Of a stretch of DNA of 64,000 bases, positions 30,333-57,884 are shown one piece after another. The notes below the pieces were generated by a model. That model did no database searches and had not been told where the DNA came from. It was given only the letters and a program-made list of their open reading frames with translations. Made by a program: the position numbers and the translations under genes. This DNA comes from Chloranthus sessilifolius (taxonomy: Eukaryota; Streptophyta; Magnoliopsida; Chloranthales; Chloranthaceae). Position 1 is the first letter of the stretch, and every line of letters starts with the position of its first letter. Where the stretch lies: positions 68,605,597-68,669,596 of the forward strand of contig CM037590.1 of NCBI GenBank assembly GCA_021018995.1, read 5' to 3'.

Positions 30333-31708
30333 TTAGCTAGTAGACCTTCCCCTTGAACTAGGCCTTTTTTTTAAAATTTTTTTTCTAACATATTATTGCT
30401 GTTTTTTTAGTGTATTTTTGCTATTTTTTTACTCACCCCTCCGATTAAGTCGTTTTACTTACCCCTACTTTTACGTCATTTACGAGCATTAGCCGATTGG
30501 CGGGCCTACTTGCACATAACCTTTATTTTCCTTACTTTTCTGTCATTTTAGTGCCTTAGCTGATTGGCTGGCCTACTTGAGCTTTGTCTTTCAATTCATT
30601 TAAATTTCTGTCATTTAAAGTGCCTTAGCCGATTGGCGGGCCTACTTGAGCACTCATATTCCGCCAGTGGACGCTGACTCGTAGTGGCGGCACGGGATAA
30701 TCACCCCCAGTCTTTGAACTAAAGAAAACTCCCAAAAAAAAAGAAAAAAAAAACTTTGAAAAAAAAATTTAAAATTGAACCAAGTTAGAGAGCTTAATTA
30801 ATTTATTTTTGCGGGTTAGATTTTCAAAGGGGTTGGATTAGGCAAACACATAAACATCTGGGTCTTAGTATGGCGGCAACCCCTAGTGGTGATGATCTAG
30901 AAAAGTCCCAGCCCACCTAGTATCTGAGAAGGCGCTTGCGCCAGAGGTATATTGGGTGGGTTCCCATTCCAAAGCTTAAAACCCTTGGGGGAGTGCGCTA
31001 GCGAGTTATACCGGACTCAATCCTTTAGGCATCGGGGAGGAGAGAATCGATTACCAAAAAACAGATCAGTTCCCGGAAGCCTAGCTTCCACAAAACCAAA
31101 AAAGGAGACTCATTTCGGGTGTTGGTGGCTATTGTCAAAAACTCTGAAGTATCTGTTTTTGGCTGGCGCATGTATTAGTTGCGCCAACACAAAAAGCTAG
31201 AATTTATAACTGGCGCAACTAATAGTTGCGCCAGCTTTAAACTCCACTTTTTTACCTTGGCGCAACTAATAGTTGCGCCAGTGTAAAAGAGCTCCCCTGC
31301 AACCTGGGCACAAGTATTAGTTGCACCAGGTTTGTTTGCAGCACCTCAGCCTGAATCTGTGGCCTTCTTCACCTCTCGAGTCCCCCGATCAGTGTGCTTA
31401 GTGCCTTGTTTGGGCCCCGCCATACGCCCCCGCCGGTCAAAAGTGGGCAACTTCTTTTTGGCTCATTCCGGGGGTTGGGTTGTTTGCCTCAATTTTTGTG
31501 CCTTCAATAGATTGAAGGTTCTCCTTCGATTCTTTCGAAGTACCTCGGAATCGTAGCCGCGGGTCTTGAATTAAGGTACGAGAGCCACCCGAAAAGGGAA
31601 TTCCAAGGCCTCGGAACCTTTGTTTTTCAAAACTCTTTAAAAAAATTCATAAAAAATATAAATAATTAAAACCCAAAAAAAAATAGATAGTTTTGTGATG
31701 CCGACACA
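30333..31708 (+). other. Leader of the giant element (5' UTR)
   Basis: A noncoding stretch between the primer site and the first gag ATG (31709). It has three GCCGATTGGC(G/T)GGCCTACTTG repeats (about 30492, 30550, 30629), a purine-rich run and, at 31164-31328, the first palindrome array. The direct repeats and palindromes are the only structure I can support. Confidence 0.6.
31164..31328. repeat. Palindrome array 1 (four copies, 47-bp pitch)
   Basis: Copies start at 31164, 31211, 31258 and 31305, exactly 47 bases apart. The palindrome is arm TGGCGCAACTA, one centre base, arm TAGTTGCGCCA. Copies 2 and 3 are perfect, 1 and 4 imperfect. The three 24-base spacers are unlike each other. It lies 380-545 bases before the gag ATG. 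Confidence 0.9.
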
Positions 31709-33789
31709 ATGGCATCATCTTGCCCTCCGCCATCCCGTAGGGGAAGAAGGAGGAAGATTTTTGGGCCTTATCCAAGGCACCCTTCTCCGACCCGCTCCCG
31801 TAGAATGTCGTGGGTAGTGGACCCGGTTTACGCCGATCCCGACTCATCCCCACCACAGTCTCCAACCCACTCCCATTCGGGGGAAGTTTTTTCCACCATC
31901 CCCCTCACCCAACCCCTCATCACATCGCCCATTTAGGCCATTTTCCCAACCAATACCCCCCAAAATATCCAATATCCAACCCCCCATTCTCCATCTTTTG
32001 CCCAAACCATGCCCATGCCAAACCCATTTTCCCAATCCAAATTCATGCCCCAATTCCCATCATCCCCCTATAGACCCGATCCACCCACATTCACATACAC
32101 CACTTCCACCCTATCCAACTCCCCGCAAAATCCCCCATCCATCCGGGTCATGCCCATTTATACCAGGGCTATGCCCAACTTTCCTCATCCCTCCTCATCA
32201 TGCCCCCCATCATCCCAAAACATACCCAATACATCCCCTCATCCACCCCATACACCCCCACCCACCGTGGCCATGCCCAATTTTTCTGCCACCTCCATCC
32301 CATCTATACCCCATCACCCCTTAAATCCCCCATCTCCGTCCAACCCTTCCTCCATGACCATGATGGAGGAGATGTTCTAAGCCTATTCCGTGTGGAAGGC
32401 TTCTCAAAACACCCCCTCTCCTCCACACCGCATGCCCATGAACCCATCCCATAGCCTAGCTAATCTCCATGCCTCACTCTCCCATGACCCCCATCAACCC
32501 CCCATAATCCACACCACCCAAACCCCCATTACCCACTTACCCCAAGGCCCCATGGCCCAATCTCCAAACTCCCACATACCCCAAGGCCCATTGGCCCAAA
32601 CCCCCTTTTCCCACATATCCCAGGACCCCATGACCCAATACCCCACCACCCAAGCCTACCCAGGGCCCATGGCTCAGACCTACCCAGGGCCCATGGCCCA
32701 GACCCACCAAAGGCCCATGACCTAGACCCACCAAGGCCCATGACCCAGACCCACCAAGGGCCCATGGCCCAAACCCATCAAGGCTTATTAAGCCAGACCC
32801 ACCAAGGGCCCATGGCCCATGGCCTAGACACACCAAGGGCCCATGGCCCAGACCCATCAAGGCCCATTGGGCAAGATCCACCAAGGCCCAGACCCAGCAA
32901 GGCCCATTGGGCTAGACCCACCAAGGGGCTATGGCCCAGACCCAGCAAGGTCCATTGGGCCAGACCCATACCATCAAGGCCCATTGGGCCAAACCCCTCA
33001 AAGGCCCTTGGCCCATACCTACCTAGGCTCACTGGCCCACACCCACCAAGGGCCCGTAACCCAAACCTACCCAGGGTCCATGGCCCAAACCTATCAATGG
33101 CCCATGACCCAGAATGACCAAGGGTTCATGGTCCAAGCCCGAACCCCACACTCACACCTTCCACAGTACCCCCAACATTTAACCCAACCTTCACAGCTGG
33201 GTCAAACCCATGTCATCCCCCAAACCCAATTCTCCCATGGCCCCACACCCCAAGGCCATCTCCAAACCTTCCCCCATACCCAATGGCCCTATCAACCCCA
33301 CCTCAAAACCAAATTCCCATCACCCAACAAATCTTTCCTCACCCCCAATGGGCTCACCCAACCCCCACTCATGTCATTCCCATCCAACCCATGCCACAAC
33401 AACAAGAGAATCCCGCCCTCACTGTACATTATGCCGACTAGCAGTATGAAGAGAACGAGATTATGAATAGCGGGGCCTATGTTGGAGCTTTGACCAGCCT
33501 CAACCCTCCTCCCATAATTGCCCATCCCTTAGTGGCCCAGAGTGAAGTCCAACTGACTGCCGAGAAAGCGACCCCTGTATCAAAAGAGTCAGAGCAGCTG
33601 AAAGAACAGTTGGATAAAATATAAAAGCAGCTGATGAAAATGGGTGGTGCTGAAATCCATGCCACAGACTTCACAGACTTATGTCTGTTCGCTGAGGTCC
33701 CCCTGCCCCCCAAATTCAAAATGCCAGCCTTCGAAAAATATAATGGCACAAACAATCCTATTGCACACCTGAAGTCCTACTGCGGGGAC
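31709..33789 (+). pseudogene. gag, N-terminal part of the giant element
   Basis: It starts MASSCPPPSRRGRRRK with a basic N-terminus, passes through a Pro/His/Thr-rich low-complexity section (31850-32380) and a tandem-repeat section (32520-33130), then text typical of Tat gag (ATDFTDLCLFAEVPLPPKF and KMPAFEKYNGTNNPIAHLKS, about 33660-33780). Gag forms the virus-like particle. It continues at 41331 beyond the Athila-like guest. Fossil, broken. Confidence 0.75.
32520..33130 (+). repeat. Coding minisatellite in gag (QGPMAQTH units)
   Basis: About two dozen units of roughly 24 bases (some 15-21) encode variants of QGPMAQTH. The core word is CCAAGGGCCCATGGCCCAGA. The antisense glycine/tryptophan-rich frames across it are mirror artefacts. 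Confidence 0.9.
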
Positions 33790-35317
33790 TGATCAATTTT
33801 AAATAAACCCTTGCAAGTGTACAAGATCTGTTCTAGTAAGGCAAGAACAAGGGTGTCGAACCCACAGGGAAATCTGAAATTTTAATCAATTCTTCCTAGA
33901 GATTTAGAAAATATCCCCGAGGAAGTACCAAGGGGCAGATTTAATTTTTACCAAAAACTTAACACTTTTCTAATTGCAAGAAAGAAAATAAATTAATCTA
34001 AAAATTTTGTAATGAGAAATTTAAGAACAAATTTTAAAACGAGATCAAGGAATATGCTACCCCAGATTTGCATCCCTTTCTATTATTAAACCCACAGTTT
34101 TATTAATCATCAAACACACCATCATTCCAAAAGATCAAATGACTAGTAATTAAGCATGATCATTAACCCGGCATACCCTATCTAAAAACGATGACTCAGC
34201 CTAACATTGCGGTATGAATCATGCTAAAAGCATAGCGTATCTCATGATGTTTAGATCAAAACAACATAAACATAATCACAAACTTTGAGAAAAACGATTT
34301 GATGATGACAATATTATACTATGGCATTAAACATAAAATATGGGTACTTATCTGGGGATCGCATCTTCCCCGATCTACAGCTTTTAGCCACTCATCCTTG
34401 GTGCAAGATCTTCAATTTCATTCAAGTCCATTCCCAAGAGAAGAGAAAACTAAAAATAAAAATATGTTCTAAGCAAGTCTCTTTACAAAAAAATCTAAAC
34501 TAAAAACTAAACTAAAATTAAAAACTAAAAGCTCTCGGAAGATAACCCTACACTAAAAACTCTCCTCTATTCCAGAAGCCCCCCTTTACAATGCCGCAGC
34601 CTCTTATTTATAATAGCCGATTCAACCTAACCCTAATTGCCTCAATTGATTGAGGCTTAAATCTCAATCGATTGAACTTTTAATTTAATCACCTTTAGGA
34701 CACTTTTGCCTTTTTGTCTCAATCGATTGAATTTCATGTCTCAATCGATTGACACTAGTTGGCCTTTTTGTCTCAATCGATTGAATTTCATGTCTCAATC
34801 GATTGACACTAGTTGGAAGTAGATGCCCTAATTGGTGGAAATCTCCAATATGCCCTCAGCAGAAACAGTCGCCAGGTTGAAATGCACAGACTTTCGCTAG
34901 GTTAGATTTCTCCTTGCTGGGTTGGGTAGTGCTCTTCGCGTGGTTGAATTGGAGAAGGATACTTTCACTATTGCGTGGTTGCTTTTATTCATCAGTCATC
35001 ACTAGGTTGTGTGAACATGCAGCCATTTCTTCCAACTGCGCGAAGGCTTATTTACACTTTGTTCCTCGCGGCGACTTCAATATCTTCCCCTTCTTGATGG
35101 AGTTTGATTCCCTTCACGGATTTCAGCGTTTCTTTGGACCCTTTTTATCCATAGCTCTTTTGTAGCCTTTAATTTCTTTCTTTTATACACTTGGAAGATC
35201 CAAAGGTCAGAAACACCTGTTATCATCAAAACCTCACAACAACCATCAAATACTTTCATCGAACGGCTAAGTGTAGGATTTAAGGTATGAAATATAGCCA
35301 TATTTCAGCACCGATCA
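33790..35317 (-). repeat. 3' LTR of the Athila-like element
   Basis: 1528 bases. It contains the AAGGGTGTCGAACCCACAGG block common in Athila-type LTRs (33849-33868) and several TCAATCGATTGA palindromes (34646-34806). Confidence 0.88.
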
Positions 35318-57557: not shown

Positions 57558-57769
57558 TACCTTTAGAGAGAAAAGGGATCTTTGGTCTAGCGTGAGCTCG
57601 CGATTGATCCACAAGTGAAAGCAATGGCAATGGGGCATGCGTAGAGGCAATGTAAAGGAACCCTAGGAGGAGGGCGGTTTTCGGTTTTAAAGAAGAAGAG
57701 AGGGGGGAAAGAATTTGAAATGATGCCCCACAGCCCGAGTTCGGGCTGTTTGAACTGCCCAGCCAAACC

Positions 57770-57884
57770 TGGAGCAACTAATAGTTGCGCCAGGCAAAAA
57801 TTTGCCTTCCTTCTGCTTGGCGCAACTATTAGTTGCGCCAGGCTATCTTCGAACTGTAGTGGCTCAAGCAACTAATAGGCGCCA
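57770..57884. repeat. Palindrome array 3 (two good copies and one decayed, 48-bp pitch)
   Basis: Copies start at 57770, 57818 (perfect) and about 57860-57866 (decayed). The 25-base spacer differs from those of arrays 1 and 2. The array lies 210-330 bases upstream of the probable first donor of antisense gene 2 on the minus strand. Confidence 0.85.

Follow-up and report, generated by a model that had tools for sequence, protein, structure and literature searches.

The 64,000-nucleotide stretch of DNA analysed here (the window) contains an Ogre-like LTR retroelement with two antisense genes for plant mobile domain (PMD) proteins and three arrays of a palindromic dyad (Table 1). The element spans 32.2 kb, including a nested element (34531-41330) and extra DNA (~51905-54280), so that the bare element would measure ~23 kb. 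Its reverse transcriptase was recognised through matches to RVT_1 (1e-20) and RT_RNaseH_2 (9.5e-11), and an RVT_3 match (5.7e-17) lies downstream of the RT RNase H at 46406-47311. The gag match was weak (E 0.0018, below cut-off), no protease was found in the scanned ORFs of the element, and the integrase, for which the scanned ORF gave no Pfam match, was recognised by eye only. We take RVT_1, an RT_RNaseH_2-type RT, RVT_3 and PMD genes to be marks of gypsy rather than copia elements, and the primer binding site is a presumed assignment. The PMD genes, the RVT_3 RNase H and the size, compared with the sections of PMC6317226 consulted, point to an Ogre-like lineage: a further RNase H that lies between RH and integrase is given there as an Ogre trait, and a plant mobile domain in the extra ORF is given for 57% of Ogre. 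The latter trait is found here, above cut-off in a homologue at another locus (L027) and below it in the window pieces.

Table 1. Features of the element and its dyad arrays, in window coordinates.
Feature	Position	Strand	Basis and remarks
Ogre-like LTR retroelement	28800..60999	+	TG...CA ends; 5-bp flanking duplication ACGAC
5' LTR	28800..30312	+	LTR alignment (90% identical, 5% gaps)
Primer binding site TGGCAACTCTGCTGGGGA	30315..30332	+	sequence read directly; presumed assignment
Array 1	31164..31328	+	four dyads (31164, 31211, 31258, 31306); leader; pitch 47, 47, 48
Second antisense gene, plant mobile domain / DUF7745 protein	50562..51119	-	broken in window copy
Array 2	51286..51403	-	three dyads (51286, 51333, 51381); pitch 47, 48; 20 relatives aligned
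First antisense gene, plant mobile domain protein	55598..56457	-	broken in window copy; PF10536 E 5.2e-8, 2.3e-4
Promoter-like stretch and leader exon, first antisense gene	57561..57700	-	conserved; limits and signals by eye
Array 3	57770..57884	-	dyads 57770, 57818, degenerate third ~57863; pitch 48; 29 relatives aligned
3' LTR	59531..60999	+	LTR alignment
Proximal dyad of 3' LTR	59960..59982	+	282 bases upstream of TATA box

Nine dyads with at most three mismatches were detected in the window, against a mean of 0 in 100 shuffles, and a tenth, at 31306, is added at four mismatches. An eleventh stands third in array 3, at about 57863-57884, where the window copy is degenerate, and a recognisable dyad occupies its place in 29 aligned relatives; with this copy recognised through relatives, the count in the first-pass annotation, ten dyads in three arrays plus one at 59960, is borne out. 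Spacers within arrays measure 24-25 bases, as had been reported, and the pitches first given for arrays 2 and 3 also agree with ours, that of array 1 being 47, 47, 48 and not 47, 47, 47. Array 1 lies about 0.85 kb inward from the 5' LTR end, and its position ahead of gag or of a promoter, given at first pass, is putative. The site core covers ~29 bases (GCCTGGCGCAACTANTAGTTGCGCCAGGC), with A/T-rich DNA on both flanks. Across 149 dyads, the base preceding TGGCGC is C in 106 and T in 40, and the palindrome extends further as GCC...GGC; on these grounds we reject an earlier likening to an E2F half-site, and CAACTA departs from the MYB core to which it had been compared. A proposed kinship of the arm with the primer site comes down to a short, chance-like resemblance. 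No exact match to the 21-base dyad form was found in viral contigs, and four 10-base motif words searched in literature text returned, among the matches listed, other subjects by title. The dyad is undescribed in the passages returned from the open literature on palindromes or regulators of Ogre or PMD elements, subscription literature lying outside this scope.

Genome-wide, 58,286 dyad copies were counted at up to three mismatches and 0 with the reversed control, although these copies are related and do not represent independent events. Pitch is strongly concentrated: among 8,025 neighbouring dyad pairs 29-59 bases apart, 6,448 are spaced by 47-48 bases and 1,297 by 37-38, that is, by one helical turn less. 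Placement is likewise restricted. In a small sample confined to one contig (C1, 30 loci), all 16 distinct clusters were homologous to the Ogre-like element once dyads had been masked (11 LTR, 2 array 1, 1 array 2, and 2 array 3), and occupied only four homologous places, namely the LTR, the leader, and the DNA upstream of each antisense gene. The random placement or pitch that the first-pass annotation had named as evidence against function was not seen among the relatives sampled. Within LTRs, subfamilies vary by whole units, from 1 to 4 distal dyads, and the last dyad lies 275-284 bases ahead of the TATA box in 9 of 11 LTR loci (280-284 in eight of these); the distance does not fit in the other two (L010 and L030). 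The LTR arrays of the window copy are decayed, with a 17-base gap removing the left arm of the proximal dyad in the 5' LTR and a distal half-dyad (TTGGCGCAAC) surviving there at about 29202. The 3' LTR alone keeps an intact dyad, which precedes the TATA box as originally described.

Promoter-like DNA starts directly after arrays 2 and 3. A TATATG follows array 2 at a distance of ~30 bases, and the second antisense gene has its first ATG (51119) 167 bases downstream of the array. Past array 3, the promoter-like stretch presents, in order, a pyrimidine patch, TTTAAAACCG, and an AAAG/GTAACC donor followed by a T-rich intron; divergence is 0.06-0.08 over array 3 and ~200 bases beyond, and 0.1-0.27 in the intron-like DNA after. 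The location of these arrays immediately upstream of the antisense genes, already noted at first pass, is conserved in aligned relatives, and both genes are PMD genes. For the first gene, both PF10536 matches fall below the curated cut-off (the stronger, 5.2e-8, just below), and pN/pS is 0.21 over 56457-56325 (30 copies); a second stretch gave 0.44 with reading frames mixed across a likely intron, and only the former value was used. For the second gene, the window ORF matches DUF7745 at E 2.6e-4, below cut-off, whereas the homologous ORF at L027 scores 50.9 bits for PMD (cut-off 34.9) and 33.4 bits for DUF7745 (cut-off 26), with a pN/pS of 0.19 between the window and L027. The reading frames of both genes are thus constrained. 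BLASTP between the two products (PMD-1 and PMD-2) gave no significant match, indicating that they are not close paralogues, and neither piece nor the L027 frame had a credible relative among solved structures; Pfam scans credibly named PMD and DUF7745 only. Gypsy-only PMD clades A1 and A2 are known.

It is very improbable, in our assessment, that the arrays are neutral minisatellites or remnants of a single ancestral repeat of 47 bp that was copied into all four places. Some arrays do contain duplicated 47-bp units (L069 and L076), and spacers from different arrays, compared through 13 representative types picked by hand, are slightly more alike than shuffles (mean identity 0.41, maximum 0.58, vs. 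0.325), which makes a common descent of all arrays possible. With CG counted, moreover, dyad divergence nearly equals that of flanks (0.049 vs. 0.062 in array 3, 0.067 vs. 0.071 in array 2). Outside CG, however, divergence in arrays 2 and 3, the two tested, is about threefold lower for dyads than for spacers, and also lower than for flanks: dyad, spacer, and flank values are 0.031, 0.088, and 0.052 in array 3 (30 copies), and 0.045, 0.137, and 0.071 in array 2 (21 copies), where the dyad mask takes rank 4 among 280 slides. The faster change of spacers in both arrays runs opposite to the outcome that had been set as fatal to a functional role. Gap frequency is also lower within array 2 (0.002-0.003) than on either side of it (0.012), the pitch is retained despite nearly unrecognisable spacers, and the four places are conserved, three of them beside promoter-like DNA. 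The earlier picture of free, mutually unlike spacers needs qualifying: the near absence of recognisable identity between arrays stands, but spacers have in common their edges (G/A-G-C), A/T-rich DNA over positions 4-9, and G/C at the centre. Likewise, the dyads are kept while spacers change, unlike an ordinary minisatellite, yet unit duplications are present. Also very improbable is a role of the dyads as RNA hairpins in transcripts, whether in leader structure, in export or packaging, or as a small RNA source. Predicted stems are strong (-90.5, -62.8, and -67.2 kcal/mol for arrays 1-3, as absolute energies), full-length genomic RNA would include all three arrays as well as the dyads of the 3' LTR, and small RNAs are drawn to palindrome clusters in maize Sirevirus LTRs (Bousios 2016, as summarised in a citing passage). 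Nonetheless, double changes between arms number 8 against 7.9 expected across 149 dyads, so that the hairpins suggested at first pass show no covariation, in a test made weak by most changes being post-insertion decay. The promoter-like signals are located downstream of arrays 2 and 3 and of the LTR dyads, which would hence be absent from transcripts starting there, and a pitch that changes by one helical turn suggests sites acting on DNA.

Building on the observed sites, their places and pitch, the lower divergence of dyads, and two PMD genes with constrained frames, we place at roughly 45% the probability that the arrays are DNA sites of a dimeric regulator linking LTR and antisense promoters, likeliest the element's own PMD proteins. 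Each array would provide double-stranded DNA sites for a regulator of two-fold symmetry, presumably a dimer, and, since the spacing from site to site is 47-48 or 37-38 bases, neighbours stand in a set helical relation and are probably bound cooperatively. With arrays ahead of the TATA box in the LTR and immediately in front of both antisense genes, a single regulator could set sense and antisense transcription together if the adjoining DNA acts as promoters; such joint control, proposed from the outset, is the most economical reading of this placement. The regulator would most likely be the pair of PMD proteins that the antisense genes encode, and the resulting loop would be self-regulating or anti-silencing. 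This pair is the foremost candidate, with a host factor as the main rival. A quite conceivable alternative, somewhat against the odds, is that the dyads are bound by a host protein, either a transcription factor or a chromatin protein, which controls the PMD genes merely among others. The DNA-level evidence for bound sites fits this alternative equally, and palindromic repeated motifs also precede the TATA box and the ENV gene in Sirevirus (PMC2829016, in the text seen). In the nested element, too, the TATA box of the LTR is preceded by a palindrome array, a different one, and two scanned ORFs of that element gave no PMD gene, suggesting that a PMD protein may be unnecessary for arrays of this kind. 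The portions of the literature examined do not establish that PMD proteins bind DNA. Against a host factor, all 16 sampled clusters belong to this element group and none lies outside it, in a small sample from one contig. Should a host factor bind instead, its sites would have been dispersed through the genome over 50,000 times.

Returning to regulation by the element's own PMD proteins, a more specific two-gene circuit can be proposed tentatively, with the odds clearly against its every detail holding: each antisense promoter would carry an operator array, and the two PMD proteins, acting as a dimer, would occupy the shared 29-base operators in the LTR and at their own promoters, keeping the element transcribable and balancing sense and antisense output. 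If this were true, retroelement PMD proteins would be sequence-specific promoter regulators, and host MAIN and MAIL1 would be domesticated members of such a circuit. A candidate target is in any case defined: one 29-base palindrome in tens of thousands of copies, with fixed pitch, at promoter-like places of PMD genes.

Among the closest parallels to this arrangement are Sirevirus elements (Ty1/copia), in which many-copy palindromic, dyad-symmetric motifs of 10-20 bases, with a CGG-CCG core in all but Tnd-1, lie in the upper LTR before the TATA box and before ENV, and for which the text seen of PMC2829016 proposes a regulatory role with no named binder. Clustering before the LTR TATA box and before an extra gene is common to both systems. 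Here, however, the palindrome has 23-29 bases and the form GGCGC...GCGCC with no CGG, the host is not Ty1/copia (RVT_1, RT_RNaseH_2, RVT_3, and PMD genes), arrays also precede two antisense PMD genes, and pitch is fixed at 37 or 47-48, none being reported for Sirevirus in the same text. Antisense extra genes proposed as regulators are likewise known between pol and the 3' LTR from Retand (TRP28) and Grande (gene23, which has its own promoter), according to the excerpts of PMC11963269 and PMC7264820; these genes belong to other protein families, and the excerpts call the tandem repeats family-specific, assign them no function, and describe no palindrome common to several promoters. VANC anti-silencing proteins offer a further close analogue, for an element-encoded protein paired with short non-coding repeats, a pairing that is putative here: they bind repeated motifs (YAGTATTAY and AGTTGTCC) in non-coding VANDAL regions, and arrays grow and shrink by units in both cases (PMC5735166, PMC10398659). 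VANDALs, however, are DNA transposons, their motifs are short and not palindromic, and binding is proven there and putative here. Finally, the PMD proteins MAIN, MAIL1, and PP7L jointly act on genes whose promoters carry the DOWN motif (PMC7156037, PMC9899485), and a relationship links the PMDs of the host to those encoded by Gypsy elements (PMC5418596). Joint action of PMD proteins on genes with a common promoter motif resembles the regulation proposed here, although host genes and another motif are involved and direct recognition of the DOWN motif is only putative. The role of retrotransposon-encoded PMD proteins is relevant to how the host silencing factors MAIN and MAIL1 arose.

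The 23-bp palindromic word (the dyad) is a real, non-random feature of the window. Nine copies were found at ≤3 mismatches, against none in 100 shuffles, and a tenth has 4 mismatches; the third copy of array 3, degenerate here, is a recognisable dyad at the same place in 29 aligned relatives, which bears out the ten array copies of the first-pass annotation. The dyad of the 3' LTR is whole, and its 5' LTR counterpart lacks the left arm, with a half-dyad left upstream.

Across the host genome (2.17 Gb), 58,286 dyad copies were detected at ≤3 mismatches and none of the reversed pattern. 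A non-random sample of 30 loci, taken from the first contig (C1), comprised 16 distinct clusters, all of which still aligned to the element once the dyads were masked (11 to the LTR, 2 to array 1, 1 to array 2, and 2 to array 3). Judging from these alignments, the dyad appears to be restricted to one element group and to four homologous places. The fixed pitch (start-to-start distance) recurs genome-wide: among 8,025 genome pairs with a pitch of 29-59, related copies whose events are not independent, 6,448 were at 47-48 and 1,297 at 37-38, with 280 (by subtraction) spread over the remaining 27 values. Similarly, 141 distinct pairs ≤200 bp apart in the fetched loci, a set biased to arrays 2 and 3 by fetching on similarity, included 120 at 47-48 and 7 at 37-38. 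Roughly one helical turn separates these two pitches.

The LTRs of relatives carry between 1 and 4 distal dyads, then a gap of ~75 bases and a single proximal dyad; whole units distinguish one subfamily from another. From the last dyad to the TATA box downstream, the distance is 275-284 bases in 9 of 11 LTR loci (280-284 in eight; 275 at locus L009, where the dyad has five mismatches) and 282 bases in the window 3' LTR. The closest TATA word detected stands 885 bases away at locus L010 and 361 bases away at locus L030, and a search of the L030 LTR found no proximal dyad.

Spacers had been described as unlike one another, which holds for overall identity between different arrays (mean 41%, maximum 58%, 58 comparisons; shuffles 32.5%) but not for their pattern, since they have G/A-G-C edges, A/T at positions 4-9, and a G/C centre in common. 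Because of these shared edges and the A/T zone, the palindrome reaches a length of 29 bases and is flanked on both sides by A/T-rich DNA. Neighbouring spacers inside arrays 1 to 3 are 36-42% identical (5 comparisons), identity is higher (48-79%) among the LTR spacers of related subfamilies, and length is 24 or 25 bases throughout despite the low identity between arrays. Across 149 dyads, A/T positions are almost invariant and many changes fall on CG positions. At loci L069 and L076, variants of array 2 have either a 47-bp unit in duplicate or a neighbour-like spacer, which shows turnover by units.

Rates were measured on array 3 (30 copies) and array 2 (21 copies), and the contrast between conserved dyads and more variable spacers was recovered in both. 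Outside CG, mean divergence of dyad, spacer, and flank was 0.031, 0.088, and 0.052 for array 3 and 0.045, 0.137, and 0.071 for array 2; with CG included, the values were 0.049, 0.088, and 0.062, and 0.067, 0.137, and 0.071. Dyad divergence is thus well below that of spacers with or without CG, and clearly below that of flanks only outside CG, where the array 2 dyad mask ranked 4th lowest among 280 slid positions. CG decay was alike in dyads and flanks of array 3 (0.134 vs. 0.128) and higher in dyads of array 2 (0.171 vs. 0.076, the latter from just 10 flank sites).

Features of the element and of other palindrome arrays in the window
Feature	Position	Strand	Remarks
LTR retroelement, 32.2 kb	28800-60999	+	TG...CA ends, 5-bp duplication ACGAC
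Array 1	31164-31328		in leader
Array 2	51286-51403		before second antisense gene
Array 3	57770-57884		before first antisense gene
Second antisense gene	50562-51119	-	
First antisense gene	55598-56457	-	
3' LTR	59531-60999		dyad at 59960
Nested second element, reversed	34531-41330	-	repeats; gag and protease on minus strand
Nested element's palindrome array	34531-35317, 40390-41330		before the TATA box of its LTR, and in leader (by eye)
Probable insertion	51905-54280		
Direct duplication	52061-54148		spacing 1.3 kb, 93-94%
24-base tandem repeat	32635-33151		
ATCGAT-based palindrome clusters	14079-14268, 22669-22974		

The element has recognisable reverse transcriptase and RNase H domains, with two antisense genes downstream of pol. 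An LTR identity of 90%, with 5% gaps, shows that it is not a recent copy. The probable insertion is read as such because the stretch, which contains the direct duplication, is absent from relative L027. The 24-base repeat falls within proline-rich open frames, which lie between 31818 and 33466, at the position expected of Ogre ORF1. Loci L013 to L015 (C1:48046561-48056911) form an apparently non-autonomous derivative, in which the LTR runs straight into DNA that matches the window at ~51.9 and 54.2 kb. It carries array 3 and the LTR arrays, and neither gag-pol nor array 1 was seen in the fetched parts.

The gene after array 3 is predicted to code for a plant mobile domain (PMD) protein, with a match in two pieces (E 5e-8 and 2e-4, both below Pfam's cut-off). 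The window copy of the gene after array 2 gave a weak DUF7745 match, and its open homologue in L027 scored 50.9 bits for PMD (cut-off 34.9) and 33.4 bits for DUF7745 (cut-off 26). Both frames show signs of purifying selection, with pN/pS of 0.21 for the array 3 gene (30 copies, first stretch) and 0.19 for the array 2 gene (window vs. L027). Divergence of array 3 and ~200 bases beyond (0.06-0.08) is about like that of the exon end (0.06-0.09), with intron-like DNA between them reaching 0.1-0.27. Promoter signs were read by eye: past array 3, a pyrimidine patch together with a probable splice donor; past array 2, a TATATG after ~30 bases and an ATG after 167 bases.

Fixed phase, two-fold symmetry, divergence below that of spacers, and promoter-proximal placement favour reading the arrays as DNA sites for a dimeric protein, to which we assign a probability of about 0.85. 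The element's own PMD proteins would be the best-fitting candidate regulator, because the arrays precede those genes, because two PMD clades are described as peculiar to Gypsy elements (PMC5418596), and because the host PMD proteins MAIN and MAIL1 are described as working jointly on genes with a common promoter motif (PMC7156037, PMC9899485). The main rival is a host factor binding the dyads, since the PMD literature consulted does not establish that these proteins bind DNA, and since the nested element has a different palindrome array while a PMD gene is absent from the two of its ORFs scanned. The palindrome of that array is CTCAATCGATTGAG; the window contains 15 sites at ≤2 mismatches, where 0.3 are expected, and the genome 242 forward pairs and 232 reverse ones. 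Its core CAATCGATTG also occurs within the Tnd-1 motif ACAATCGATTGT (PMC2829016). Elsewhere in the window, AATCGATNNATCGATT has 11 matches (0.4 expected), nine in the second ATCGAT-based cluster, one near the first, and one in the nested element.

Among the literature matches listed, we found no description of a single palindrome that recurs at fixed pitch in an LTR and at the promoters of two antisense PMD genes. VANDAL elements have arrays of short motifs, to which VANC proteins bind (PMC5735166, PMC10398659). Of Ogre elements, 57% are reported to carry PMD genes (PMC6317226). In its antisense extra genes the element resembles Retand, for whose antisense genes a regulatory role is presumed (PMC11963269), and in its palindromic motifs upstream of the LTR TATA box and of an extra gene it resembles Sirevirus, in which palindromic repeats are described ahead of the TATA box in the LTRs and also ahead of ENV (PMC2829016).
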